Assembly (NCBI GenBank): GCA_029264685.1
Contig: JARHZW010000020.1
Coordinates: forward strand, 1-39,947
Length of the DNA: 39,947 bases
Direction: 5' to 3'
DNA from: Candidatus Limivicinus sp.
GTDB lineage: Bacteria; Bacillota; Clostridia; Oscillospirales; Oscillospiraceae
Positions 11,296 through 26,893 of this stretch are shown here, in pieces (position 1 is the stretch's first letter; each line of letters begins with the position of its first letter). The notes below the pieces were generated by a model. The model searched no databases. It saw only the letters and a program-made list of their open reading frames with translations, and was not told the DNA's origin. The position numbers were made by a program, and so were the translations under genes.

Positions 11296-11324
11296 TTGAC
11301 ATTTTTTTGTGAATAATATAAAAT
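11296..11324 (+). promoter_or_regulatory. Promoter of the YheO-like regulator
   Basis: Plus-strand TTGACA (11296-11301), a 17-base spacer and TAAAAT (11319-11324). The start is near 11331, downstream of the GTG at 11309, which rules that codon out as the gene start. Confidence 0.75.
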
Positions 11325-11359
11325 ACAGTAAATTTAAAGATTGTACTGGTGGTGTATAC

Positions 11360-12025
11360 ATGAATGACCCGGAGCTGATCAGAGCTTATATTCCTCTGGT
11401 TTCTTATTTAGGTTCAGTTATGGGAAGCAATGTTGAGGTTGTTCTGCACAATTGCGAAAGCCCCAATAAATCCGTCATTGCAATAGCCAACGGCCACCTT
11501 TCCGGAAGAAAAGTCGGCTCTCCGATTACGGACTTTGCCATGAGCTTTATAATGAACGGCCAATACAAAGAGCATGATTTCATTTCAAATTACCGTGCTA
11601 AGGCAAACGGGAAGGTTTTTTCCTCCTCCACTTTTTTCATAAAGGATGCCGTGGGCAATCTGATAGGTATGCTGTGCATAAACAAAGACCTGTCTACTGC
11701 AAAAAACTGTTTAAACACTTTAAGCAGTTTTCTCGATAGTATAAATATGGGAATTGCTCTGAATACCGGCAGTGCCGAAACCATTCAGGAGAATCTGGAT
11801 ATGCCTATTGACTCGCTTGCAAGCTCAATAGTGCAGAAAACCGTAAGTTCCTACAACATATCACCGGAGCGGCTGACCAGAGAAGAGAAGAGGAAAATCG
11901 TTCAGGAACTGGACGAGCAGGGTATTTCAAAAATAAAAGGCGGAGTGTCCGAAATAGCCAGACTTCTGGAGGTTTCGGAGTCTACGGTCTACAGATACAT
12001 AAACCAGAAAGACAGCGATTTATAA
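11360..12025 (+). CDS. YheO/DauR-like PAS-HTH transcriptional regulator
   Basis: DNA-binding regulator with an N-terminal YheO-type PAS-like sensor domain (about residues 5-120; VLHNCESPNKSVIAIANGHL is typical). The C-terminal helix-turn-helix (about 180-220) contains GGVSEIARLLEVSESTVYRYI. The 221 residues match the family. The ATG at 11360 is chosen because the upstream GTG lies inside the promoter. It is divergent from the ridA-cyuA operon, with a palindrome between. Relatives control D-arginine or amino-acid catabolic genes. It most likely senses the operon's substrate or a product and regulates that operon; this is inference. Confidence 0.88.
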   Translation: MNDPELIRAYIPLVSYLGSVMGSNVEVVLHNCESPNKSVIAIANGHLSGRKVGSPITDFAMSFIMNGQYKEHDFISNYRAKANGKVFSSSTFFIKDAVGNLIGMLCINKDLSTAKNCLNTLSSFLDSINMGIALNTGSAETIQENLDMPIDSLASSIVQKTVSSYNISPERLTREEKRKIVQELDEQGISKIKGGVSEIARLLEVSESTVYRYINQKDSDL

Positions 12026-12085: not shown

Positions 12086-13978
12086 TTACTGAACGGTGCA
12101 GTGCATAAAGTACTTGTATCCAAGGGGATTTGAGAAGAAGCCCTGAACACTGTCGTCCAGCATATAAATATCGGTGTAGAAGTACAGAGGAACAATACAG
12201 CCTGTATCCATCAGCATATCCTCGGCTCTGTGCATAAGTTCATAGCGCACCTCGTTGTCGGTGCAGCCCTTAATAAGGCTTATAAGGACATCATAGGTCT
12301 CTGCCCATGTTCCGTTTTCCACCTTAACGTCAAAGCCCAGATCTGTCAGGTCAAGGTTGTAGATATTCACACTCTGGTGCTCATCCTTGCCAAACTGAAT
12401 GTCGTTGTTGCCGGAATTGCTGATCCACATATCAAGGAAGCAGATAGGATCGTTATAGTCTGCAACCCAGCCGTTGCGGGCCATGGAATAACCGCCTGAT
12501 TTACGGGTATTCAGGAAGGTGTTCCACTCCTGATTTTCCATGTTCACGGTGATTCCCACGCCTGCCAGAGCACTCTGGACATATTCGCCGATGGCCTTGT
12601 GGCTATCATTGGTGTTGTAGAGGTAGCTAAGGGTGGGGAAGTTTGTAAACTTCATGGTGGCCTCGTCGAAGCTGTAGTACTTCTTCAGAATTTCCACAGC
12701 CTTGTTGAAGTTATTTTCAAAAGCATCCGCTGAAACATCGTAGTAGCCTACATAGTCCTTGCTGTCGCCCGCAGTTTCATAGAACTGGCTGCCGTCAGGG
12801 TTGGTCATACCCATTGCAACAAAGGAGGATGCAGGAACCTGCCCTGCCTGGCCGATTTCCTCAACAATGTAGTTGCGGTCAAGAAGCAGACCGATTGCCT
12901 TGCGGATTTCAGCCTTTGCAGCCTCTGCCTCTGCTCCTGTAAGCTTGCAGTCGGCAGGAAGAATTTCCTCGTTGATATTCCAGCACACATAGTATGTACC
13001 GATCTGTCCTGCAACGACAAACTCGTCGGGATAATCCTGCTTCAAGGTTGCGATTTCATTGGTAGGCACATCGTCGATCAGCTGCCAGTCACCGTTTTTG
13101 AAGTTGGTGAGCATATTGTTTGAATCGTTGGACAGGTAGAAGTTAATGGTATCTATTGTAATGCTGTCCGCATCCACAAAATCGGGATTTTTCTCCAGAG
13201 TTATAATGCTGTTGTGATCCCATTTGGCCATCTTGTATGGGCCGTTGCAGATATATGTGCCTGCATCGGTTGCCCATGCAGCACTTTCGACCACATCCTC
13301 ACGGACAGGGAAATAGGCAGGAAATGCCAGAAGCTCGTTCCAATATGCTACAGGATTTGCAAGGACAACCTCCAAAGTCTTGTCGTCAACTGCGGTTACA
13401 TTAAGTTTTGCATCGGGATTTACAAACTCCTCAACCTCTTTGCCCTCTGCATCCTTCTCTCCTGTGGGCTTGCTTTCCCACATTTTGGCATAGCCGTCAA
13501 TTACCTCAAACATATAGCTGTAGTCAGCTGCAAGCTGGGGAGAAGCGGCACGGTTCCATGCAAATACGAAATCCCCTGCGGTAACGGGCTTTCCGTCGGA
13601 CCATTTAAGTCCGTCACGGAGGGTGTAGGTATAAGTAACGGTTCCGTCCTCATTCTGCACTCCCTCCACCAGCTCTTCAACGGCTGCCGGAACTATAACA
13701 AGCTTGCCGTCCTTATCCTGACTCCATGTGGCCAGACCCTGAAACAGGTGGCTTGTGAGAGTTGCGCCGTCAACTGCGGAGTTGAGGGCAGGGTCAATGC
13801 TGTCCGGCTCGGAAGCAATACATACATTCAGGACACCTGGGCCTGCGGGCGCATCTGCCGGTGCGTCTGCGGGAGTATCGGAGGGCGGAGCTGACGGTGT
13901 TTCTGCCGGCTTTTCGCCGCATGCGGCCAGTGCAAACACCATGCACAGAGCCAGAATAAGAGCAAGAATCTTCTTCAT
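12086..13978 (-). CDS. oppA: Peptide-binding lipoprotein of importer 1 (family 5)
   Basis: Extracellular, lipid-anchored solute-binding protein for an oligopeptide/dipeptide importer. The signal peptide ends in a lipobox with Cys20 (ALAACGEK), followed by a Pro/Ala/Asp linker. The mature protein has family-5 landmarks: LRDGLKWSDGKPVTAGDFVFAWNR near residue 130, EKNPDF, and late WVADYNDPICFLDM. The C-terminus has PLYFYTDIYMLDDSVQGFFSNPLGYKYF in the usual place. The 630 residues are on the long side. It is the last gene of the operon, 52 bases after OppF, and ends at a strong terminator. The ligand is inferred to be peptides. Confidence 0.93.
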   Translation of the reverse strand: MKKILALILALCMVFALAACGEKPAETPSAPPSDTPADAPADAPAGPGVLNVCIASEPDSIDPALNSAVDGATLTSHLFQGLATWSQDKDGKLVIVPAAVEELVEGVQNEDGTVTYTYTLRDGLKWSDGKPVTAGDFVFAWNRAASPQLAADYSYMFEVIDGYAKMWESKPTGEKDAEGKEVEEFVNPDAKLNVTAVDDKTLEVVLANPVAYWNELLAFPAYFPVREDVVESAAWATDAGTYICNGPYKMAKWDHNSIITLEKNPDFVDADSITIDTINFYLSNDSNNMLTNFKNGDWQLIDDVPTNEIATLKQDYPDEFVVAGQIGTYYVCWNINEEILPADCKLTGAEAEAAKAEIRKAIGLLLDRNYIVEEIGQAGQVPASSFVAMGMTNPDGSQFYETAGDSKDYVGYYDVSADAFENNFNKAVEILKKYYSFDEATMKFTNFPTLSYLYNTNDSHKAIGEYVQSALAGVGITVNMENQEWNTFLNTRKSGGYSMARNGWVADYNDPICFLDMWISNSGNNDIQFGKDEHQSVNIYNLDLTDLGFDVKVENGTWAETYDVLISLIKGCTDNEVRYELMHRAEDMLMDTGCIVPLYFYTDIYMLDDSVQGFFSNPLGYKYFMHCTVQ

Positions 13979-14030
13979 TTTTAGTTTTCCTTTCCAATAT
14001 TTTTTAAAGCATACCGCTTTGTTTTCATCC

Positions 14031-15017
14031 TTAATTTATCTCGTTTAACCTGTGGCAGGCTGCGAAGTGGCCTGATGAGACCTCTTTAAATTCGGGAACC
14101 TCTTCTGCGCAGCGTTCGGCAGCATAGGGACAGCGGGTGCGGAAGGGGCAGCCGGAGGGAGCATTCAGCGGACTTGGAATATCCCCCGAAAGTACAATGC
14201 GCTTGTTTGCCCTTGCCACCTTCGGGTCGGGCTGTGGAACCGCCGACATAAGGGATTTGGTATAAGGATGGAGAGGATGGGAGTAAATCTCGTCCGCATC
14301 CGCCAGCTCCACCATTTTCCCCAGATACATAACCGCTATTCTGTCGCTTATATGTCTGACTACAAGAATGTCGTGGGCAACGAAAAGATAGGTCAGACCC
14401 ATTTTTTCCTGCAATTCATCAAACATATTTATAACCTGAGCCTGAATTGAAACATCCAGTGCGGAAACAGGTTCATCGCAGACAACAAACTCAGGCTTCA
14501 GCGCCAAAGCTCTGGCTATGCCGATTCTCTGTCGCTGACCGCCGGAAAACTCATGGGCATATCGGGAGGCGTGCTCGGAGTTCAAGCCCACCTGACTCAT
14601 AAGTTCAAGTATTTTCTCACGGCGTTCCGCCTTGCTGCTATACATTTTGTGAATATCCAAAGGCTCGCCGATTATGTCGGAAACCGTCATTCTGGGGTCA
14701 AGGGATGAGTACGGGTCCTGAAAAACCATGGTGGCCTTCTTGCGGAACTCCTTTATATCCTCCTTTGTAACTATGGGTTTTCCGTCGTAGATTACTTCTC
14801 CGGCGGTGGGCTTATACAGGTGGAGTATGGTGCGGCCCACGGTGGTTTTTCCGCAGCCGCTCTCCCCTACCAGGCCTAATGTTTCCCCCTTTTTTATGGA
14901 AAAAGAAACATCATCCACTGCTTTAAGGGGTTTTGACTTGAACATACCCACGTTTATATTGAAATACTCTTTAAGGTGCTTTACCTCTACAAGAGCCTTT
15001 TCATTATTTTCGCTCAA
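14031..15017 (-). CDS. oppF: Oligopeptide importer 1 ATPase, OppF type
   Basis: Cytoplasmic ATP-binding subunit of importer 1. Walker [10 protein letters not shown] is at about residues 51-59, the Q-loop [11 protein letters not shown] at about 99-109, then signature SGGQRQR, Walker [12 protein letters not shown] and the H-loop. The C-terminal oligopeptide extension has a cysteine set ([14 protein letters not shown]). The 328 residues are normal. It starts at an ATGA overlap with the OppD stop. The Walker A Lys to Q-loop Gln distance is about 42 residues, which makes it the reference for the inserted homologue in importer 2. Confidence 0.96.
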
Positions 15018-16030
15018 GGTCTTTCAACCTCCTTCCCTGCCGGTTCTATTTCGCCCTTTTCTATGCCTTCCTTTACATTCATCCAGCAGGCAGCCTGATG
15101 ATCTTCATTTAGCTGCATACGCTCACAGCGCTGCTTGAGGCATATTTTCATGGCATTGTCGCAGCGTGGGGCAAACGGACAGCCCTGAGGCATATTAAGA
15201 AGGTCTATAGGTGTGCCTGTAATGGGTTCCAGCTTTCGTCCCGCAGTGTCTGCGGTAGGAATGGAGCGCATAAGGCCTTTTGTGTACTCGTGTCTGGGAT
15301 TATAAAAAATTTCGTCCGCCGTTCCCTGTTCGCATATTGATCCGGCATACATAACTATAACCTCGTCGCACATCTGAGCAACCACGCCCAGATCGTGGGT
15401 TATCATTATGATTGCCATTCCCAGCTCCTCCTGAAGGGACTTCATCAGGTCAAGTATCTGAGCCTGAATGGTCACATCAAGGGCGGTGGTAGGTTCGTCG
15501 GCTATCAGGATGTCAGGCTCGCAGGCCAGAGCCATGGCTATCATAACTCTCTGCCTCATGCCGCCGGAAAACTCATAGGGATACTGTTTTATACGCTTTT
15601 CCGGTTCATTCACATTTACAAGCCTGAGCATTTCTATCGCTCTCTCTTTTGCCTCTTTTTTGTTTCGCCCCGTATGGAGCATTATTGCCTCCATAAGCTG
15701 ATGGCCTATGGTATAGGTAGGGTTCAGAGAGGTCATGGGGTCCTGAAATATTATGGATATTCTGTTACCCCTAATGGTTTTCATCACTTTTTCACCGGCG
15801 TCAACCAGCTCCTGTCCGTCAAACTTAATGGAGCCGGAGACTATTTTTCCGGTACTTTCCAATATCTGCATAACTGAATATGCGGTGACGGATTTTCCCG
15901 AGCCGCTTTCGCCCACTATGCCCAGCACCTTACCGTGGTCAAGATTAAAGGACACGCCGTTTACGGCCTTTACCTCGCCTGCGGGGGTGAAAAAGGAAGT
16001 ATGCAGATCTTTAACTTCTAATAGTTGCAT
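15014..16030 (-). CDS. oppD: Oligopeptide importer 1 ATPase, OppD type
   Basis: Partner ATPase of OppF in importer 1. Walker A GESGSGKS is at residues 40-47, Q-loop [11 protein letters not shown], signature [16 protein letters not shown], Walker [13 protein letters not shown] and the H-loop THD. A C-terminal oligopeptide domain has the cysteine cluster [19 protein letters not shown], which in relatives can hold an iron-sulfur cluster. The 338 residues are standard. It begins 16 bases after the OppC stop with AAGGAG upstream, and its stop overlaps the oppF start. Confidence 0.96.
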
Positions 16031-16046
16031 TTGTTATGCTCCTTTC

Positions 16047-17105
16047 TCAGTTTCTGAGCTTGGGGTCAAAGGCATCTCTCAGTCCGTCTCCGAAAAGGTT
16101 CAGGGACAAAACTATAAGAGAAATGACGATTGCCGGAATGACCAGACGGGCCGGATAGGAGCTGAGGCCGTTGAGCGCCTCTGAGGCAAGAGAACCGAGA
16201 GAGGGCATGGGGGCATTGACACCCAGACCGAGAAACGAAAGATAGCTCTCTGTAAATATTGCGCTTGGTATCTGCAAGGCGGTGGAAATTATAACCACGC
16301 TTATGCAGTTCGGAAGCAGGTGCTTTCTGATTACCCAGCTGCCTGTTGCTCCTGCTGCTCTGGATGCCAGAACATATTCCTGCTCACGCAGGGATAAAAT
16401 CTGTCCCCTTATAAGTCTGGACATTGACACCCAGTAAAGAAGGCCGAACACAACGAAAAGGCTTATTATGTTTGCGCCTATCTTTGCAAACACTGTTCCC
16501 TCAATAACCGGCGCAAGAGCCACCTTCAAAACCGTTGACAGCAGAATGACCATCAGCATATCCGGCAGAGAATATATAATGTCAACTATCCGCATTATGA
16601 CAAGATCCACCTTGCCGCCGCAGTAACCGGCTATAGAGCCTATGGTCATGCCTATTATAAGTACAATGATACTTGCGAAAAATCCTACGGCCAGAGAAAT
16701 TCTGGTGCCGTAAACTACTCGTATAAAGTAGTCTCTGCCGGAAGAATCAGTGCCGAAAATGTGGGGGAAAACTTTTTCTCCGTTTTCCATCATTTTGAGT
16801 TCTGTTCTGCCGTATTCAAAGGGCGCCAGATTGTTAAATGACGCATCCACCGGCTTGCCGGGTCTGACGCCAAGCATAGTTTCATACTGGTAAGGCCAGA
16901 ACATAGGAATAAGAATTGCCGAAAGTGTAATCAAAACTATAATAATGAAGCTTACTGTTGCAACCTTATTTTTGAGAAGTCTCTTTACGCCGTCCCTGAA
17001 AAATGTTGAAGAGGGGCGCATCTGCACCATGTATTCCTTTTCTTCTTCGGTGGCGGGTATGAAATCGTCAAGGTCAACATGGAGGCTGAAAGGTTTTTTT
17101 GTCAT
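16047..17105 (-). CDS. oppC: Oligopeptide importer 1 permease, OppC type
   Basis: Inner permease subunit, 352 residues with about six membrane segments. The extracytoplasmic loop after TM1 is short and ends in the family motif HIFGTDSSGRDYFIRVVYG. The cytoplasmic EAA loop is EYVLASRAAGATGSWVIRKHLLPN. The C-terminus is GDGLRDAFDPKLRN. The frame extends to 17126, but the ATG at 17105 has GGAGG eight bases upstream and avoids overlap with the previous gene. It provides a direct size comparison with the propeller-bearing OppC of importer 2. Confidence 0.95.
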   Translation of the reverse strand: MTKKPFSLHVDLDDFIPATEEEKEYMVQMRPSSTFFRDGVKRLLKNKVATVSFIIIVLITLSAILIPMFWPYQYETMLGVRPGKPVDASFNNLAPFEYGRTELKMMENGEKVFPHIFGTDSSGRDYFIRVVYGTRISLAVGFFASIIVLIIGMTIGSIAGYCGGKVDLVIMRIVDIIYSLPDMLMVILLSTVLKVALAPVIEGTVFAKIGANIISLFVVFGLLYWVSMSRLIRGQILSLREQEYVLASRAAGATGSWVIRKHLLPNCISVVIISTALQIPSAIFTESYLSFLGLGVNAPMPSLGSLASEALNGLSSYPARLVIPAIVISLIVLSLNLFGDGLRDAFDPKLRN

Positions 17106-17118
17106 TGTCTCTGCCTCC

Positions 17119-18048
17119 TTATTCAAGGTTAATTCTCGGGTCTACAACTTTATACAGAATGTCACTCACCAGATTCATAACTACGATGAGGCAGGCAAGG
17201 ACAATGGTGCAGCCCATTATAAGAGGATAGTCACGGTTGGTAATACTGTTTACAAAAGCTCTGCCTATACCCGGAACTGCAAAAATCTGTTCTACGACCA
17301 GAGAGCCGGTCACTATATAGGCAAGCATGGGGCCGAAGTAGGTAATAACAGGGATAAGGGAGTTTTTCAGTGCGTGACCGAAGATGATTTTCGACTTTGA
17401 AACCCCCTTGGCCTTGGCTGTTCTGATGTAATCCTGCCCCAGAACGTCAAGCATTGAGGAACGGGTAAGCCTTGTAATATAAGCCATTGGGTAAAGAGCC
17501 AGAGTAATTACAGGAAGGATAAGACCCTGCGTAGTGGCTCCGTTTGCAGGAAGCACTGCAAGTTTGATTGCAAACAGTACCAGCAGCAGCGAGCCCATGA
17601 TAAACGATGGCATAGAAACAAATGCGGTAGTTATAACCATTATTATTTTGTCCGGAATTCGGTTTCGCATAAGTGCAGCGAAGGATCCAAGCACGACCCC
17701 CAAAGCCAGCGCCGCAAACGCAGCAGTAAGGCCAAGCTTTGCGGAGGTTTTCATGCCGTCAGTAATAATGGCGCTGACGGTACGTCCACGCTGTTTGAGA
17801 GAAGGACCGAAATCGTGGTTTACGACTATATCTTTCAGGTAGGTGGTGTACTGCTCAAATTTGGATTTATCCAAACCGAATTTTGCTTCAAGAGCCGCCT
17901 GCGTGGCGGGAGCAACCGCCTTTTCACCCATAAACGGACCGCCGGGTATGGAGTGCATTACGAAAAAAGTCACCGTAATAACCACCCACACAGTCAGCAC
18001 CGCAAGACCGATTCGTTTTAAAATGTAAAGCAGGGTTTTTGAGTTCAT
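17119..18048 (-). CDS. oppB: Oligopeptide importer 1 permease, OppB type
   Basis: First permease of importer 1, 309 residues. It starts MNSKTLLYILKRIGLAV, then an extracytoplasmic loop (about 34-100), the EAA loop DYIRTAKAKGVSKSKIIFGHALKN and the C-terminal DILYKVVDPRI. The frame is open up to 18165, but that ATG overlaps the -10 box of the operon promoter. The ATG at 18048 gives the canonical N-terminus with AGAGGCG upstream. It is the first gene of an operon in the order B-C-D-F-binding protein. Confidence 0.94.
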   Translation of the reverse strand: MNSKTLLYILKRIGLAVLTVWVVITVTFFVMHSIPGGPFMGEKAVAPATQAALEAKFGLDKSKFEQYTTYLKDIVVNHDFGPSLKQRGRTVSAIITDGMKTSAKLGLTAAFAALALGVVLGSFAALMRNRIPDKIIMVITTAFVSMPSFIMGSLLLVLFAIKLAVLPANGATTQGLILPVITLALYPMAYITRLTRSSMLDVLGQDYIRTAKAKGVSKSKIIFGHALKNSLIPVITYFGPMLAYIVTGSLVVEQIFAVPGIGRAFVNSITNRDYPLIMGCTIVLACLIVVMNLVSDILYKVVDPRINLE

Positions 18049-18163
18049 TTTACTACGCCTCTTATCTTCCCAAGGCCCTACCCTTTTTGCGGTCCTAACG
18101 GCAGCAGCTGACACGGCAAGCACTTTGCTCGTGTAAATTGGTAAAACCTTTAATTTGTTCTTC

Positions 18164-18192
18164 ATTGTAATTTATCTAATTAGGAATTTCAA
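18164..18192 (-). promoter_or_regulatory. Promoter of importer 1 operon
   Basis: Minus-strand TTGAAA (18187-18192), a 17-base spacer and TACAAT (18164-18169). The start is near 18157, leaving a leader of about 110 bases before oppB. Confidence 0.75.
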
Positions 18193-18662: not shown

Positions 18663-20270
18663 TCAGCCTCTCTCTGACTTCTGCTCCATTTTGGGGAGCG
18701 CAAACAGATATTTTCCGTTTTCGTCAATCTTTCTTTCAGGGAAATGGCAGGCAAGGAAGTGACCCGGTTCGACCTCACGAAGCTCCGGAGGAACTCTCTT
18801 GCACTTCTCGCAGGCCATATAGCAGCGGGTATGGAACTTGCATCCGGAGGGGGGCTTTATAGGTGAAGGAATGCTTCCCTCAAGAATAATGCGCTCTCTT
18901 GATGCGGTGTTCACATCCGTAGTGGGAATAGAGCTGAGAAGCGCCACAGTGTAAGGATGTCTGGGATCAGAGAACACGGTAGCCGCATCAGCAAGCTCAA
19001 CAACATTGCCCAGATACATGACGCAGATACGGTCGGAAATGTAGCGGACGACAGACAGGTCATGGGAGATGAACATATAAGTCAGGTGTTCTTTCTCCTT
19101 CAGCTCCTGAAGAAGGTTTATTATCTGAGACTGAATGGACACGTCAAGAGCGGAAACACATTCGTCGCACACAATAAACTTGGGGTTAACTGCAAGGGCA
19201 CGGGCTATGGCAACTCTCTGGCGCTGACCGCCGGAGAACTGGTGAGGATAGCGGTGCAGCATATACTCCTGAAGACCGCACTCAACCATGGTGTTGACAA
19301 TATGCTCACGCATTTTGGGAGAACCGTGCTTATACATATTGTGAGTAAGCAGACCTTCCTCGATTATCTGGCCTATAGTGAAACGAGGGTTAAGGGATGA
19401 ATAGGGGTCCTGAAAAATAATCTGCAAATCACGACGCAGATAGCGCATTTCGCTGTATTTTAAACGGGACAGGTCTATTCCGTCATCTCTGAGAGCCTCA
19501 TATTTCTGGAACTCCTCGTTTGTGGCATAGCTCTTTCTAAGGCTGTCCAGCTCATCATTGAGCTGTTTAACAGCTGCCTCATTCTCGGCATATTTCTTTT
19601 CAAGCTCTTCGATCTCTTCGGTCAGCTTGTTTCTCTTCTCAATTACCTTATCCATATTTTTGGCATCGGTAACAGTGTCAAGGTGCTCCTTTTCAATGCG
19701 AGCCCTGTGCAGCTTATGAGCTGCGGTAACACGCTTAACATTTGCCTCATGTATCTTGAGCATAATGTCTATACCCTTGTTGTCGTCCTCAATGGTATAG
19801 AATCCGCCGAGAATCTTTACAACATGGCTGAGGGTTGTCTGAGCATCGGAAACAGCAAGGTTCTTATCCTGAAGCAGGTAGAAATCTGCGTTCTCTTCGC
19901 CGCCGGCTTCCTCTACTTTTTTGATAAGCTCCTGTGCTTTCTCGTTTGCCTTGTTTATTTTGTGTCTGTACTTGTCCAGATTTTTAAGGGTTTCGGGAAC
20001 ATAATCGCAGGGGAAATCTGCGAGACTGGCGCCGTAGTACATGGTAGTACCGGCAGTCTGGGGATACAGTTGGAGAAGAGTACGGCCCAAGGTAGACTTA
20101 CCACAGCCGCTTTCACCCACTATGCCCAGAGTTTCGCCCTCGTAAATATCAAGGGAAATATCCTCATTTGCACGGACATAAAGCTGCTCTCTCTGCAAGA
20201 CAGAGCTTTTGGCAACGGGGAAGTATTTTTTTAGATTAGTTATTGACAGTAATTTTTTTGTGCTCGGCAC
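18663..20270 (-). CDS. oppF: OppF-type ATPase with large coiled-coil insertion
   Basis: Cytoplasmic ATPase of importer 2, 535 residues against about 330 usual. Walker A GESGCGKST is at 52-60. The Q-loop [11 protein letters not shown] follows only at 286-296, so Lys-to-Gln is 229 residues instead of about 42. The intervening part (about 80-272) is charged and helical, with a strong coiled-coil-like stretch at about 200-260 (KRNKLTEEIEELEKKYAEN). Signature SGGQRQR, Walker B CDECVSALD (Cys replaces the usual Pro after DE), the H-loop SHD and the C-terminal cysteine cluster are intact. It has a GTG start at 20270 with GGAGGTG seven bases upstream, overlapping oppD by 35 bases. Confidence 0.93.
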   Translation of the reverse strand: MPSTKKLLSITNLKKYFPVAKSSVLQREQLYVRANEDISLDIYEGETLGIVGESGCGKSTLGRTLLQLYPQTAGTTMYYGASLADFPCDYVPETLKNLDKYRHKINKANEKAQELIKKVEEAGGEENADFYLLQDKNLAVSDAQTTLSHVVKILGGFYTIEDDNKGIDIMLKIHEANVKRVTAAHKLHRARIEKEHLDTVTDAKNMDKVIEKRNKLTEEIEELEKKYAENEAAVKQLNDELDSLRKSYATNEEFQKYEALRDDGIDLSRLKYSEMRYLRRDLQIIFQDPYSSLNPRFTIGQIIEEGLLTHNMYKHGSPKMREHIVNTMVECGLQEYMLHRYPHQFSGGQRQRVAIARALAVNPKFIVCDECVSALDVSIQSQIINLLQELKEKEHLTYMFISHDLSVVRYISDRICVMYLGNVVELADAATVFSDPRHPYTVALLSSIPTTDVNTASRERIILEGSIPSPIKPPSGCKFHTRCYMACEKCKRVPPELREVEPGHFLACHFPERKIDENGKYLFALPKMEQKSERG

Positions 20271-21249
20271 TCTGTCTCACCTCCTTTTCAGGATAGAAGC
20301 AACGGATAAGCTGTCCATTGCCCATGTCAGTCAGCTTGGGTTCCTCCTCCATGCACTTCTGAGTTGCATATTTGCAGCGTGGTGCAAACTTGCAGCCCTT
20401 AGGCAGGTTAAGAGGATGGGGAACCACACCGGGGATGGGCTCTATCTTGCTGCCTGCATTTTCTATGCGTGGGATAGAGAACATAAGTCCCTCGGTATAA
20501 GGGTGGCTCATTTTGCAGTTTTCAAAAATAGTTCTTGCACAGGCTTTTTCCACAACCTGTCCGCAGTACATAACTGCAACGTCGTCGGCCATCTCATTTA
20601 TAACACCCAAATCGTGGGTAATAAATATAATGGCCGTTCCCTTCTCTTTCTGAAGGTCATTCATAAGGCGCAGAATCTGAGCCTGAATTGTAACGTCAAG
20701 GGCGGTGGTAGGCTCGTCTGCAATAAGGATTTTAGGCTTGCAGGCCAGCGCCATGGCAATCATAACTCTCTGGCGCATACCGCCGGAAAGCTGATGAGGA
20801 TACTGCTTCATAACGGCTTCAGGGTTAGGGATCTGAACGTCATACAGCATACGCAGTGCATTCTCTCTGGCCTCTTTTTTCTTCATCCCCTGATGTATCA
20901 TAAAGGGTTCGCAGAGCTGTCGCTCAACGGTGAAAACAGGGTTGAGCGAGGTCATAGGCTCCTGAAATATAACGGATATTGCGTTTCCACGAATAGCGTA
21001 CATTTCATCCATGGGAAGCTTTGTCAGGTCTCTTCCCTCATAGAGGATTTCACCGGATTCAATATAGCCGTTGTCATCCAGAAGCTGGAGAATACTCATG
21101 GCGGAAACGGACTTACCGGAGCCGGATTCTCCAACTATGCCGATAGTCTTTCCCTCTTCAAGGGAGTAGGACACGTCGTTAACGGCCTTGACTATGCCTT
21201 TTTTGGTTTTAAAGAAAGTTCTTAAATTTTTAATTTCCAACAGTGGCAT
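20236..21249 (-). CDS. oppD: Oligopeptide importer 2 ATPase, OppD type
   Basis: Partner ATPase in importer 2, 337 residues, normal size. Walker A GESGSGKS is at residues 41-48, Q-loop [11 protein letters not shown], signature [16 protein letters not shown], Walker [13 protein letters not shown] and the H-loop THD. The C-terminal oligopeptide domain has [15 protein letters not shown]. The ribosome-binding site GGAGGG is six bases before the ATG, and the gene is 12 bases downstream of the propeller permease. Unlike its OppF partner it has no insertion, so the extra domain is on one side of the ATPase dimer only. Confidence 0.96.
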
Positions 21250-21261
21250 GTCTTTCCCTCC

Positions 21262-23253
21262 TTACTTTTCAACACTGGACTTGGGGTCCATAACATCACG
21301 GAGTGCGTCACCCACAATGTTAATGCAAATTGTGGTGACTGCGAGGAAAATGCCGGTAAACAGCCACTGCCACCAGTAGGTATTGATAATAGTTGCGTTA
21401 TTTGCGCCGTTGAGCATATTACCCCATGTAGGACGGGGGTAAGCAACACCGAAGCCCAGATAGCTGAGAGAGGATTCGGTCAGCATACAGGTACCGAAGT
21501 CAAGCATGAGAGTAACAAGGATAACGCTCATAACGTTGGGCAGGATGTGTTTAAAGGCAATGTTTTTTTCCTTAACACCCATGGCCTTTGCGGCGGTTAC
21601 ATACTCGCTTTCACGGGCAACCAGAACCTGACCTCTGACCAGAACTGCAAGTCCGGGCCAGGACAGCACACCCAAAATACACATTATAATAAATATTCTC
21701 ATGGTCTCTGAGAGAGTCATTCTGCCCATAACGGCCGAAAGGATCATGGCAAAGGGCAGGAAAGGTATGGCACGGAAGATTTCCGCCACACGCATGAGGA
21801 TTATATCCACCTTACCACCGAAGTAGCCTGCAAGGCAGCCTATAATAATACCGATGATGGTGGAGATGATAACGGAGACCGCACCTATTGTCATAGTCAT
21901 GCGTCCGCCGTTGATAATACGCTGGAATATATCGGCGCCGTGTATATCAGTACCGAAAAGGTATCCCTTCAGACCCCATTTATCCAGAAGCTTGCCGTCC
22001 TCACGGACTGCATAGGTCTGGAAGGAGCCTGAGAAGAGCTTATCAACATTTTTGATTTTCTTGGGAGCATCGCACTGGTTCAGGTTATCGGCACCCCATG
22101 AATATACATTGCCCTTATCGGTAATGCCGCTGTAGTGATAGGAACCGCCCACAATATCAACAAAATGCTCGTCAGCAGGCAGTGCAGGTGCATTTATAAC
22201 GCCTCTGGGGAAGTCACCTGCAAAGCAGACGGAACCGTCATCCAGCATAAGAGCCATAGAGGTGGAGGTTGCCACGATCTTCTCGATCTTGCGCTTGCCG
22301 ACGAAATCGCCGATAGCCTCTGTTCTCTGGTCGAGATTAGGTCTGACTACATCGTAGAGTCCACGGGAGCCGGTGTAGATAGTGCGTCTCTTGCCGTTAA
22401 TACCAACAATATAGTTAAGGGTAAAGTCCAGATCGTACATATTGCCTGCGGCAAGGAACAAATCCATGTTAGTGTAGGCGTTCTTATTGCCCCAGAGATA
22501 AAGGGTTCCGTCATCAAGGATGATGGCTGAGGTCTGATAACCGCAGGTAAGCTTCTTGACACGGCTTACATCAATACCGGAGGTTCTGAGAATTTCAGGC
22601 TCGTATGCAATATTGGGGTTAATATCCTGACCGCTTTCACGGGCTTCCTTCTCGGTACCGTACTGACCCAGCTTGTTGCTGCCCCAGCAGTAAACCTTAC
22701 CTGTATCAGCGATTGCAACAATATGGTCTATACCTGCTGCAACCATTTCGATTTTGGAGTCTTTTACCTCCTGAGGAATATCGGCCACATCGATACCGGT
22801 GGTGCCTATCTTGGTTGCGCCCCATACATATACCTTACCGGCATTTGAAAGGCCGACGGTAAATGATCCGAAGCCGTCTATCATCTTCACGTCACCACGA
22901 AGCTCACGGGGAACGGACATCATAGACATTGTTGGCGGAATGCTTTTCTGGGTGACTTCAGTGTAGGCATCGTCATATTTGGGCATCATAAGAGGTCCCA
23001 CAAACATGGTGATAAACATTACGGCCAGCAGGATAAGTGCAAAGACTGCCAGCTTCTTTTCAAGGAAGTTATTAAGTATCTGACGGCCGGGACTGACGAT
23101 TTCTTCAACATCAGCGGCCTTTGCCGCCTCTGCGCCGGTGGCTGAGGGCATTTCATCCGCAAGGGAATTGCTGCCGCCCTTCCACAAACGGCCGACCCAT
23201 GAACCGATTGTTTTAAAGAAGTCCTGAGAGGACTTTTTGAAATTTTTGCTCAT
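21262..23253 (-). CDS. oppC: OppC-type permease with inserted RCC1-like beta-propeller
   Basis: Permease of importer 2, 663 residues, about twice the family size. A cytoplasmic N-terminus (about 1-65) is followed by TM1 (about 68-90) and then about 300 extra residues. These contain repeats of the RCC1 type: VGLSNAGKVYVWGATKIG, VAIADTGKVYCWGSNKLGQYG, AIILDDGTLYLWGNKN, ALMLDDGSVCFAGDF and ITDKGNVYSWGADNLNQ, plus two degenerate ones. That is about seven, enough for one propeller. The chain then resumes with the normal motif YLFGTDIHGADIFQRIINGG, further membrane helices, the EAA loop and the C-terminal GDALRDVMDPK. OppC topology puts the propeller outside the membrane. The start at 23253 has GGAGGAGA upstream. 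Confidence 0.95.
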   Translation of the reverse strand: MSKNFKKSSQDFFKTIGSWVGRLWKGGSNSLADEMPSATGAEAAKAADVEEIVSPGRQILNNFLEKKLAVFALILLAVMFITMFVGPLMMPKYDDAYTEVTQKSIPPTMSMMSVPRELRGDVKMIDGFGSFTVGLSNAGKVYVWGATKIGTTGIDVADIPQEVKDSKIEMVAAGIDHIVAIADTGKVYCWGSNKLGQYGTEKEARESGQDINPNIAYEPEILRTSGIDVSRVKKLTCGYQTSAIILDDGTLYLWGNKNAYTNMDLFLAAGNMYDLDFTLNYIVGINGKRRTIYTGSRGLYDVVRPNLDQRTEAIGDFVGKRKIEKIVATSTSMALMLDDGSVCFAGDFPRGVINAPALPADEHFVDIVGGSYHYSGITDKGNVYSWGADNLNQCDAPKKIKNVDKLFSGSFQTYAVREDGKLLDKWGLKGYLFGTDIHGADIFQRIINGGRMTMTIGAVSVIISTIIGIIIGCLAGYFGGKVDIILMRVAEIFRAIPFLPFAMILSAVMGRMTLSETMRIFIIMCILGVLSWPGLAVLVRGQVLVARESEYVTAAKAMGVKEKNIAFKHILPNVMSVILVTLMLDFGTCMLTESSLSYLGFGVAYPRPTWGNMLNGANNATIINTYWWQWLFTGIFLAVTTICINIVGDALRDVMDPKSSVEK

Positions 23254-23266
23254 TTTCCTCTCCTCC

Positions 23267-24310
23267 TTACTTTGAAACTCTGACTCTGGGGTCAACCAGA
23301 CCGTAAATAATATCTATTATAAGGTTACCAATCAGAGAAACTGCAACATAGAACATCTGCATAAGCAAAACTACATCGTAGTCAGCGGCACGCAGAGACT
23401 GAATCATAAGTCTGCCCATACCGTTTAATGCGAACATATCTTCAATAACCAGAGAACCGGCGAAGATGCCGAGGAACCAGCCCACAACCAGAGTAACAAT
23501 GGGGATAAGAGCGTTGCGCCATGCGTGGGAATAAATAACTGCTCTTTCACGGAGGCCCTTTGCTCTTGCGGTTTTAATGCAGTCCAGAGAAAGAGCTTCG
23601 ATCATGGAAGCACGGACATATCTGGTCATACCGCCAAGTGAGCAGAAGGTCATGGTTATAAGGGGAAGAGCAAGATAATAAAGCTCATCCCAGAATTTTC
23701 TCATGCCCACAAAACTTGAACCCGGGGTCTGCATTCCGCTTGGGGGGAAAATATGGAGCTTTGAACAAAACAGCCATATGAAAAGTATAGATATAAGGAA
23801 GGTCGGCAAACTGTAGCCCACGATGGTAAATATCTGAACACCCTGGTCAAAGTGAGACCCTCGCTTCACGGCACAGTGGATACCGAGAGGTATGGTAATT
23901 CCCAACGCCAGTATGGTGGCGAAAATATTTATCTTTATGGTGTTTTTCATAGGAGGTCCGACAACTTCCAGAACAGGCTTCTGTCTTTCGTAGGACCAGC
24001 CCAGATTTCCCTGCAAAAGACCGTCATAGGAACCGTCGTACAGAGGGGCAACGCCGATCCAGCGCAGATATCTTACAAGCTTATTGTCCGTATCAGTACC
24101 GTATTTGCGCTGATACTCCAGATACAGCTTATCAAAATATTCCTGCTGCTGTCCTTTTGGAATAGTGTTTTTCATAGCCTGTACCTGCGCTTTTGCGTCC
24201 TGATAGGCTCTGTTGGCGGGAACAAGGCTGTAAATCATGAACATGATGAAAGAAAGCAGTATCAAAACTACCAGCATGTACCCTATTCTTTTCAGGCTGT
24301 ATTTTAGCAT
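23267..24310 (-). CDS. oppB: Oligopeptide importer 2 permease, OppB type
   Basis: First permease of importer 2, 347 residues. The N-terminus MLKYSLKRIGYMLVVLILL forms TM1. The outer loop (about 32-123) is some 25 residues longer than in importer 1 and includes a charged, Gln/Lys-rich segment (YQDAKAQVQAMKN). The EAA loop DCIKTARAKGLRERAVIYSHAWRN and the C-terminal DIIYGLVDPRVRVSK are canonical. Two ATG codons occur; 24310 is chosen because GAGG is seven bases upstream. It is 13 bases before the OppC start. A hairpin and a candidate promoter separate it from the binding protein gene. Confidence 0.94.
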   Translation of the reverse strand: MLKYSLKRIGYMLVVLILLSFIMFMIYSLVPANRAYQDAKAQVQAMKNTIPKGQQQEYFDKLYLEYQRKYGTDTDNKLVRYLRWIGVAPLYDGSYDGLLQGNLGWSYERQKPVLEVVGPPMKNTIKINIFATILALGITIPLGIHCAVKRGSHFDQGVQIFTIVGYSLPTFLISILFIWLFCSKLHIFPPSGMQTPGSSFVGMRKFWDELYYLALPLITMTFCSLGGMTRYVRASMIEALSLDCIKTARAKGLRERAVIYSHAWRNALIPIVTLVVGWFLGIFAGSLVIEDMFALNGMGRLMIQSLRAADYDVVLLMQMFYVAVSLIGNLIIDIIYGLVDPRVRVSK

Positions 24311-24380
24311 AGTCATTCCTCATTTCTTGCCTGTTTAAATGGATAAATTACATACCTGCATAAAGCAGACCGTTTTCTAC

Positions 24381-24577: not shown

Positions 24578-26893
24578 TTACTTGAGCCAGTAAGCATCAG
24601 CCATATCCTTAATGTAGTACTGGCTGTAGGTATCATACTCTGCGGGGTCTATGGTCAGGCTGAAAGCGTAGTCATAGACAGCAGAGGGATAACCGGTTGC
24701 GAAGTTGAAGCAGGTGTACAGAGGTGTACCGCTGTAGAAACCGTAGATGGGAGCCTGAGACAGCTCATCCAGCATGGGGTTGAAGTCACCCAGAGTGTAC
24801 TGGATAACAAAGCCTGCATTCTTCAGGTTGGGATTCTCAAGGAATCCGGTCATCAGCTGGTCGGAAACAGGGTTGGGAGTAGTGCCGTACCAGTTAAGTA
24901 CCAGAGGCATGTAGTAGTCATCGCCGACCTTCTCGGTCTTGTATGCGCCGTCCTTGGAAGCGAAGGTAATGTCACGCTCATCCATTTCGGATGCGGGAAT
25001 CTTCTTGTAACGAACGCCGGAAACATAATCGGAACCGTCAGCTGCATATACCCAGCCGCCTTCCTCCAGAACAGCAATTGCGCTGTCAACGGAGGTAGCG
25101 TAAGCATCAAGCATCATGCCGTCAGCAATAGCCTCTTTGTACATCCAGGAACCGGAGTAGTAAGGACCGTCAACTGCACCGCCGTAACCGCCGGTGAAGT
25201 CCTTGGCAAACTTTGCTCTGTCCATGCAGTAGGCGATAGCCTGACGAACTTCGGTGAACTGAACAGGACCGAAGTCGGCACGGAAGCCCAGCTTACCGTA
25301 GCCTGCACGGCTGTAGTGGGTGTAAACGAACTTATCGGGGTTCTTATCGCAGAGAGCCAGACCCTCGGAGATGCTCTCGCCGCCGTTGATGGTAGCCAGA
25401 ACGTCAACGCCGCCGGACTTCAGGTCCTCAAGCTGGGTTGCGGGAACGATCTTCTTGTAAACGATCTTCTCGATGGAAGGCTTTTTGCCCTCTCTGTTAC
25501 CCTTGTATTCGGGGTTAAGAGTAAGGACTACGGAGTTGTCAGAGTCATTCCACTGGGAAATTACATACTGACCGGAGTAGGGGTAGGTGCTGTCAGAATT
25601 CCATGCGCCCTTGTAGATATGGTCGGCCATAACGTACTTATCGCCGTTCTTTGCATAGAAGTCATCAGTGAAGTAAACGCCGTTGCCGTCGTCCTTGATG
25701 TCTGCATTATTGAGAAACAGAGCCATGGGCTGAGGATCAAAGGCTACATATGTAATAGCGTAGAAATAGGGGATGTACTGGTCGTCAACAGTGACGGAGA
25801 ACTGGTAGTCGCCCAGAAGGCGCAGACCTGCAAACTCCTTGGAGGTCTTCACAACCTGAGGATTGCCGTCAACATCAGTGGTGGGGTTGCCCTCTCCGTC
25901 AAGAACGGGGAGCTCTGCGGGGCAGCCGGGGCCGGTGTAAGCATCAAAGCTCTTGAAGCCCACATACTGCATACCTGCGGAGTGGTCTCTGCCGGCAGCC
26001 TGAGCGCCGACAGGAGTAGAGAACACCATGGGATGTACCAGATAGTTCTTTGCAGTGATGGGAGAACCGTCGGAGAACTTCAGATCCTCGTGAATGGTGA
26101 TGGTGAAGGTCTGGCTGCCGTCCTCGTTAACAACTTCCTTGTGCTCCTTAACGACGGTGGGGTTCCACTCGAAGTTGCCGTCGGGAGTCTGCTCAACGAT
26201 GCCCAGGCCGGTTATAAGCTTCTGAATGTTGCTGTCAGCAGCGTTGGGGCTGTTTGCGCCGAACATGGCGTAACGGAACTTACCGGAAAGCTCGGTAACG
26301 TCACCGAAGATAATGGAGTTATCGGACTTCTCGGAGGTCCAGTCGATGGAAGCCTGAGTAGGAGCCCAGTAGGGGTTGCTGGGGAATTCCTCAACACCCT
26401 TTATCTGTGCGTTGTAGAAATCATAGTACTCATCGGAGTAAAGGGGAATTTCGGGAAGGAGCTGGTTCCAGCGGGTGATGTAAAGTCTCCACCAGTCGGC
26501 GTAGACATCGTTTTCATCTTCCCAGTCGCCGCCCTCGGGGACAGTAGTGTTATAAACCATAGCACGGCTCAGGAAGTCCAGACCCAGAGTGTAGAATTTA
26601 CCGTCACGCTGGATGTAAGCTGTGCCGGTCTCTTCGTCCTCAACGACATCGGCGATAGTAACCTCATCACCGAACTGTTTGTACAGAGAGATATAGTCTG
26701 CACCATACTCTTTGCCGTTGAGAGTCTTAAGCTCTGCGATTTTGGATTCATCAACAGAAACCTCTTCGGCAGGACCTGCGGGAGCATCTGTAGGAGCAGC
26801 AGACTCTTCAGGTGCATCAGCAGGCTTTTCACCGCAGGCTGCAAGAGAGAAGACCATCATAACAGCAAGCAGTAAAGCAATAAGCTTTTTCAT
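24578..26893 (-). CDS. oppA: Long peptide-binding lipoprotein of importer 2 (family 5)
   Basis: Lipid-anchored solute-binding protein, 771 residues, well above the common 500-600. The lipobox Cys is at 20 (SLAACGEK), followed by an Ala/Pro/Asp linker. The usual family-5 start (about residues 218-285: ADSNIQKLITGL, then HEDLKFSDGSPITAKNYL) comes only after about 190 extra residues. Those include RWNQLLPEIPLYSDEYYDFY at 141-160 and then IKGVEEFPSNPYW. This resembles the segment that ordinary members, and importer 1's protein, have at the C-terminus. The C-terminus here ends without it. This suggests a circularly permuted or duplicated-end member. It is the first gene of importer 2, with ribosome-binding site GGAGG. 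Confidence 0.92.
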   Translation of the reverse strand: MKKLIALLLAVMMVFSLAACGEKPADAPEESAAPTDAPAGPAEEVSVDESKIAELKTLNGKEYGADYISLYKQFGDEVTIADVVEDEETGTAYIQRDGKFYTLGLDFLSRAMVYNTTVPEGGDWEDENDVYADWWRLYITRWNQLLPEIPLYSDEYYDFYNAQIKGVEEFPSNPYWAPTQASIDWTSEKSDNSIIFGDVTELSGKFRYAMFGANSPNAADSNIQKLITGLGIVEQTPDGNFEWNPTVVKEHKEVVNEDGSQTFTITIHEDLKFSDGSPITAKNYLVHPMVFSTPVGAQAAGRDHSAGMQYVGFKSFDAYTGPGCPAELPVLDGEGNPTTDVDGNPQVVKTSKEFAGLRLLGDYQFSVTVDDQYIPYFYAITYVAFDPQPMALFLNNADIKDDGNGVYFTDDFYAKNGDKYVMADHIYKGAWNSDSTYPYSGQYVISQWNDSDNSVVLTLNPEYKGNREGKKPSIEKIVYKKIVPATQLEDLKSGGVDVLATINGGESISEGLALCDKNPDKFVYTHYSRAGYGKLGFRADFGPVQFTEVRQAIAYCMDRAKFAKDFTGGYGGAVDGPYYSGSWMYKEAIADGMMLDAYATSVDSAIAVLEEGGWVYAADGSDYVSGVRYKKIPASEMDERDITFASKDGAYKTEKVGDDYYMPLVLNWYGTTPNPVSDQLMTGFLENPNLKNAGFVIQYTLGDFNPMLDELSQAPIYGFYSGTPLYTCFNFATGYPSAVYDYAFSLTIDPAEYDTYSQYYIKDMADAYWLK

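Follow-up and report, generated by a model that had tools for sequence, protein, structure and literature searches.

A stretch of 39,947 nucleotides from Candidatus Limivicinus sp. (assembly GCA_029264685.1, contig JARHZW010000020.1, positions 1 to 39,947; hereafter the window) encodes an ATP-binding cassette (ABC) importer of the Opp/Dpp type, the permease subunit OppC of which contains a complete seven-bladed RCC1-type propeller between its first and second transmembrane helices (TM1 and TM2). This nested architecture is near certain. The features concerned are as follows.

21262..23253, minus strand: oppC with an RCC1-type propeller insert, 663 amino acids (open reading frame, Pfam, AlphaFold2)
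22987..23055, minus strand: TM1 of OppC, within the Pfam OppC_N match, residues 67-89 (model helix and Pfam)
21970..22908, minus strand: seven-bladed RCC1-type propeller, residues 116-428, three strands per blade (Pfam, AlphaFold2, fold comparison)
21946..21957, minus strand: FGTD motif of OppC, residues 433-436, from which the permease core runs onward to the stop

The propeller within OppC

The oppC gene starts with an ATG at 23253, in front of which lies an AGGAGG site. The Pfam search was run on a 677-residue version of the protein with a TTG start, in which residue numbers are those of the 663-residue protein plus 14. In this version OppC_N (expectation value (E) 8.1e-07, 29.3 bits; cut-off 23.9) precedes the repeats and BPD_transp_1 (E 5.6e-32, 111.4 bits; cut-off 26.4) follows them. 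The profile search suggested with the original prediction, which had been made from the letters of the sequence, found both RCC1_2, in three stretches (E 8.5e-25, 86.3 bits; cut-off 22), and RCC1 (E 3.6e-13, 50.3 bits; cut-off 21.7). The whole-domain model WD40_RLD (PF25390) scored under its own cut-off of 150 (E 8.2e-33, 114.6 bits), and gave 129 bits across residues 76-385 of the OppC from another locus, L047. The nearest named OppC model, the Opp4C equivalog NF045476, gave 286.1 bits, which is below its curated cut-off of 350.

Pfam recognizes only some of the propeller repeats, and two blades, 4 and 5, have a degenerate look. In the AlphaFold2 model, seven three-stranded blades extend from residue 122 to 427 with a predicted local distance difference test score (pLDDT) of about 90. 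The seven blades bear out the ‘around seven repeats’ that had been read from the sequence; the limits given for them (residues 124-430) and the FGTD motif placed after them were also right, and the model of OppC alone contains the complete propeller that had been claimed for a single permease subunit. The FGTD motif begins five residues past the final propeller strand and leads into TM2, so that both ends of the propeller are within the TM1-TM2 loop. TM1 itself sits in a stretch of low to middling confidence in the model, and its assignment is backed by the OppC_N match.

The side of the membrane on which the propeller lies was judged by homology. The TM1-TM2 regions of E. coli DppABCDF are periplasmic (PMC12136057), and the propeller would by analogy be extracytoplasmic, in keeping with the outer position originally proposed. 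The same paper describes a ‘scoop’ in the TM1-TM2 region of DppB that inserts into the cleft of the binding protein, with sealing of the cavity as its proposed role. Like the propeller, the scoop is an extracytoplasmic TM1-TM2 insertion, and it contacts the docked binding protein; it is, however, a helix-loop-helix in the B subunit, whereas the window has a propeller of ~310 residues in the C subunit. By homology, the propeller probably stands outside and adjoins the docked binding protein, as the OppC counterpart of the DppB scoop site.

Known Opp/Dpp importers (E. coli DppABCDF and OppBC; M. tuberculosis DppABCD/OppABCD) likewise combine OppC_N with BPD_transp_1, and have a five-gene operon, an SBP_bac_5 lipoprotein and two ATPases with an oligo_HPY C-terminal region. 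Solved OppC/DppC chains (287-302 residues) match only the core of the window OppC and therefore lack the propeller. Domain databases may already list the OppC-propeller architecture, uncommented. The original statement that no such importer had been described agrees with our search of open-access full texts (subscription papers and preprints lay outside it), which turned up no account of an ABC permease with an RCC1 propeller. RCC1-like propeller proteins of Hepatoplasmataceae, as far as the available portion of their description goes (PMC10928387), are not fused to an ABC permease.

Comparison of the predicted structure with solved ones gave BLIP-II (1jtd, 3qhy) as the closest fold, followed by UVR8, HERC2, RPGR and RCC1; the plant receptor-kinase ectodomains ACR4 and CR4 were also among the matches. 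These proteins share the propeller fold, which here is nested within an ABC permease. BLIP-II is likened to the OppC propeller by fold alone, the trait of its own family being the binding of class A beta-lactamases. The window's genome also encodes another RCC1-repeat protein, with an N-terminal hydrophobic segment, which is apparently divided between two contig ends (contigs C79 and C59; L110:2-712, minus strand, and L107:1-585, plus strand).

Distribution, conservation and origin

When one genome per species was scanned with a pattern, 17 relatives came up, all matching over the full length or nearly so; the rectum or colon of deer and goat are among the sources in their record titles. The propeller architecture is isolated by a profile search with the threshold E <= 1e-90. 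At this threshold it is present in 23 of the 295 genomes sampled from the order, in 17 of 391 from the class and in 14 of 398 from the phylum; the samples overlap, the window's genome is counted in each, and contig ends truncate some few of the matches. In a sample of 60 genomes there were eight full-length matches (>620 bits), every other match scoring 260 bits or less. The propeller importer occurs in several orders of Clostridia and of the phylum to which they belong, and patchily within the window's own genus. Some match to the propeller-bearing OppC was found in 3193 plasmid records, in none of which does a single region cover 80% of the query.

The survey of OppC homologues that had been suggested was made on 54 loci (55 were collected, and the duplicate L077, equal to L023, was removed) and on a second set of 12 further loci without duplicates; matches in genomes G210, G241, G634 and G081 (L131) fall outside these sets. 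An insert of 268-313 residues that can be aligned to the propeller is present in 54/54 loci. In L119 and L118 the propeller operon lies on contigs of 3.1 and 1.8 megabases (Mb) from one-contig genomes, which argues against assembly error; with 54 distinct loci and 12 more, two of them on Mb-scale contigs, chance or assembly error was rejected.

A tree of the OppC core, from which the insert had been removed, was made by a quick search. It comprises 48 rows with a propeller and 16 without; the automatic cut failed for six further propeller rows and for four of the seven other OppC sequences of the genome, which were left out. The propeller rows form one side of a single branch (Shimodaira-Hasegawa-like approximate likelihood-ratio test 98). 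The propeller is apparently one change on this tree, and would have been gained once if the root is placed among the rows without it.

The propeller changes faster than the permease that carries it (identity 0.37, vs 0.62 for the OppC core). Its most conserved residues are mainly those typical of the repeat (Gly, Trp-Gly and Pro), together with the invariant Gln 393 and Gln 412; Cys237 is almost invariant among the 18 nearest relatives. No conserved functional face was found from sequence conservation, judged from the sequence alone without mapping onto coordinates.

Different inserts, of ~200 or 370 residues, are present in the TM1-TM2 loop of OppC in loci L034-L042, from the same genus and order (for example L036:4652-6316 and L039:4012-6069). 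A Pfam scan of four inserts of this type gave no significant match, and the accompanying OppF lacks a long insert. The TM1-TM2 loop of OppC seems to serve generally as a place where domains are added.

Companion changes in the operon

The other genes of the operon, and the segments of their products discussed here, are the following.

23267..24316, minus strand: oppB, same operon (profile matches)
20236..21249, minus strand: oppD, ATPase (profile matches)
18663..20270, minus strand: oppF, ATPase with a long insert (profile matches, motif spacing)
19485..20030, minus strand: OppF insert, ~180 residues, largely helical, residues 81-262, between Walker A and Q-loop
24578..26893, minus strand: substrate-binding lipoprotein of the SBP_bac_5 family, 771 residues, circularly permuted
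26345..26599, minus strand: moved segment of the binding protein, residues 99-183, matching the C-terminal segment of unpermuted binding proteins
24605..26344, minus strand: remainder of the binding protein, residues 184-763, matching model positions 35-545 of unpermuted proteins

The gene order binding protein-oppB-oppC-oppD-oppF, on a single strand, was found in 59/66 loci; in the seven incomplete operons (L018, L047, L052, L086, L092, L106 and L126) the absent gene falls at a contig end. OppD and OppF both carry ABC_tran and oligo_HPY, as Opp-type ATPases do. The binding protein matches SBP_bac_5 with 99.6 bits (cut-off 32.4) and has a lipobox-like LAAC in its sequence. The scoop (TM1-TM2) region of OppB spans 73-98 residues between two motifs in propeller operons (47 of 54 have both motifs) and 67-77 residues in ordinary operons (9 of 12 have both). 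As it is not shorter in propeller operons, the propeller seems to have been added and not to have replaced the scoop.

The insert in OppF, largely helical to judge from its composition and, like the permuted binding protein, absent from the original prediction, was followed through the spacing between Walker A and Q-loop. This spacing is 214-257 residues in all 48 propeller operons of the 54 in which it could be measured (of the other six OppF, five run into contig ends, and the sixth, L097, shows the insert although Walker A is missing from its called frame), 196-238 residues in 12/12 loci of the second set, and 47-51 residues in 13/13 operons with a non-propeller OppC, where the insert occurs in 0/13. 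In the converse search, with an OppF model at 1e-125 over the 295 genomes of the order, 28 genomes matched. Four of them (G107, G114, G234 and G328) match with the C-terminal half only and were counted as ordinary; among the remaining 24, 22 have a propeller-bearing OppC, including G259, in which the OppF match begins only at position 272, at a contig edge, and the insert is not visible. The other two are G286, which is cut at a contig edge, and G302 (L129:4987-13071), in which a full OppF insert stands beside an ordinary OppC of 303 residues, followed by a gamma-glutamyltranspeptidase gene. In G081 a propeller-bearing OppC lies at the edge of a contig, and OppF is not matched. Wherever the spacing could be measured, a propeller-bearing OppC is accompanied by the OppF insert; the insert can also occur without the propeller, and the arrangement in L129 is possibly the older setting of the insert. 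Comparison of the insert with solved structures gave five weak matches (E 0.03 to 0.45) and no clear relative.

The binding protein is permuted relative to those of sister operons. Permutation was found in 19/47 loci, the window's subclade, and in 19/19 of these, by sequence comparison, model positions within 515-618 come before positions within 35-546. In the fold comparison many rows pair residues ~183-702 of the model with residues 1-395 of the 517 of OppA, and others, from the untrimmed model, reach residue 771 and chain residues 450-501 through a stretch with pLDDT below 50. Fold comparison keeps sequence order and so cannot reveal a moved segment; the structural result is consistent with permutation and not decisive. 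Among the matches listed, the solved binding proteins of Opp/Dpp importers all keep one unpermuted order, and no earlier circularly permuted SBP_bac_5 binding protein was found in a search of the open-access literature. TpMglB-2, a ‘Type Ic’ glucose-binding protein (PMC4990184), is likewise a circularly permuted binding lipoprotein of an ABC importer, but it is a Type I sugar-binding protein, whereas the window's protein belongs to SBP_bac_5 and is not of the Type I sugar class. Permutation needs two changes both on the OppC core tree and on a tree of OppB, OppC and OppD together (47 loci, quick search), on the latter because L025 stands apart; a single permuted clade was not rejected (approximately unbiased test, p 0.405). 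Two binding-protein genes precede the propeller operon at L118:7919-12434 (minus strand), and one intact and one fragmented gene do so at L128:4-5559 (plus strand).

Co-variation was examined by partial correlation of propeller distances with those of the binding-protein body, controlling for OppC core, OppB, OppD and the OppF ATPase. Over 44 loci r was 0.55, and 0/2000 permutations were as high. None of 500 permutations was as high with cubic controls (r 0.29), with p-distances (r 0.35), after thinning to 32 loci (r 0.36) or in the 19 permuted loci (r 0.63). The OppF insert changes faster than the propeller and was slightly linked to the binding protein in two of the six runs (r -0.01 to 0.18 overall; r 0.18, 13/500, in unpermuted loci and r 0.11, 39/500, in the thinned set). 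The possibility that propeller and OppF insert form one cross-membrane device is weakened, as their distances are uncorrelated (r -0.06 to 0.05) and L129 is a counterexample. DppC touches DppF within DppBCDF (PMC12136057); by homology, propeller and OppF insert would belong to one half of the transporter.

Proposed function and alternatives

The importer is of a known transporter kind and carries three linked changes. We put at about an even chance the proposal that it is an Opp/Dpp-type oligopeptide importer (a type I ABC importer) in which the OppC propeller serves as a docking or gating module for its own binding protein. OppC would have gained the propeller in its extracytoplasmic TM1-TM2 loop, apparently once, and with so short a link between the last strand and the FGTD motif the propeller should move with OppC. 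It could then act as a dedicated docking platform for the operon's lipid-anchored binding protein, holding it above the permease; it may favour the loaded binding protein and may help to seal the cavity, while on the cytoplasmic side the OppF half bears a helical insert of its own. A later step, in the window's subclade, would have been the permutation of the binding protein, whose lipid-anchored N-terminus would be shifted by it, plausibly in a way that suits docking next to the propeller. More tentatively, the importer may have been rebuilt as a set, the propeller being a receptor for the binding protein, the OppF insert relaying or reading its docking, and the binding protein being permuted to fit.

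The co-variation, which goes beyond that with the rest of the operon, favours an outer partner for the propeller, the binding protein foremost, and so lends indirect support to the original suggestion that the propeller recognizes the binding protein. That support does not extend to the 25 unpermuted loci, in which the correlation is not significant (r 0.10, 69/500 permutations), and this is one of several points that weigh against the docking proposal. Common exposure to phages, hosts or solutes could yield co-variation without contact. No binding face stands out, because the top-conserved propeller residues are mostly of the repeat type; the propeller has 0-6 cysteines across loci (4 in the window), slightly unusual for an outer domain; and the membrane part of the OppC model mostly has pLDDT below 50. 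Propeller and OppF insert are also not strictly coupled, because in L129 an insert-bearing OppF accompanies an ordinary OppC.

As a machine known from textbooks, the ABC importer has few parts, and a propeller in the permease would be a new building plan. If the importer was indeed rebuilt as a set, type I importers would have a new way to couple the binding protein to the translocator. The propeller importer is common enough (17/391 class genomes, the window's included) to matter for peptide nutrition in Clostridia. The general question of what decides the docking of loaded vs empty binding protein would be made testable, and the linked changes in OppF and the binding protein offer a natural series of variants of a rebuilt machine.

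A substrate of oligopeptides is suggested by an M3 peptidase gene (Pfam Peptidase_M3), which lies upstream with strong similarity in 9/54 loci and fits peptide uptake. It is on the same strand in L009-L014 (e.g., L010:2313-3983, plus strand) and divergent in L084, L087 and L094; L099 and L100 have weak matches and the window none, the upstream sequence available being short in many loci. Automatic clustering of neighbouring open reading frames of at least 150 residues gave it as the most frequent gene that is neither an ABC gene nor antisense to an ABC gene. The same gene would suit a second substrate site, at which the propeller binds peptides, glycopeptides or wall fragments and hands them over or sets specificity. 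By homology the propeller lies beside the substrate entrance (PMC12136057), fast variation may be shown by a specificity domain, co-variation is also expected if propeller and binding protein track one substrate, and Gln 393 and Gln 412 could be ligand residues. There is, however, no larger invariant polar set in the propeller sequence, and several fold-match titles name protein complexes (BLIP-II/TEM-1, UVR8/COP1, RPGR/RPGRIP1 and RCC1/Ran) with no small-ligand complex noticed among them, although titles are weak evidence. We regard a second substrate site as unlikely.

The partner of the propeller might also be a third, outside protein (of the envelope, a rival, a host or a phage), for which the importer would be a sensor, an anchor or a decoy. 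The bacterial propeller of closest fold, BLIP-II, was solved bound to another protein, receptor-kinase ectodomains appear in the fold list, the same genome has its second RCC1-repeat protein behind a hydrophobic segment, and the different inserts in the same OppC loop indicate that the loop tolerates the display of different domains. No third gene is regular in the operon, however, the top neighbour being the M3 peptidase, and a third partner is unlikely to much the same degree. A chiefly structural role, in which the propeller would hold the transporter away from the wall or shield it, without specific binding, would be compatible with the degenerate look of blades 4 and 5, the variable sequence and the different inserts that relatives carry at this place; but an insert alignable to the propeller is present in every one of the 54 loci, these form one side of a single branch of the core tree (48 rows), and propeller and binding protein co-vary in their distances, which makes this improbable. 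A cytoplasmic location, which the presence of a few cysteines might suggest, or a chimeric reading frame or assembly error has a negligible probability given the periplasmic TM1-TM2 regions of the family (PMC12136057) and the 54 distinct and 12 further loci, two of them on long contigs.

Neighbouring genes in the window

A second, ordinary opp operon lies directly downstream (12086-18165, minus strand). Its OppC (16047-17126) has OppC_N and BPD_transp_1 only, as had been said of the ordinary copy, and its OppF has no insert. No RNA element in the window reached Rfam cut-offs. Beyond the second operon is the following regulator gene, and amino-acid catabolism genes also follow.

11309-12025, divergent: PAS_6/HTH_22 regulator, after the second opp operon

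Beside the propeller operon the window also encodes an M20 peptidase, a sodium:solute symporter, an amidohydrolase and a serine dehydratase.
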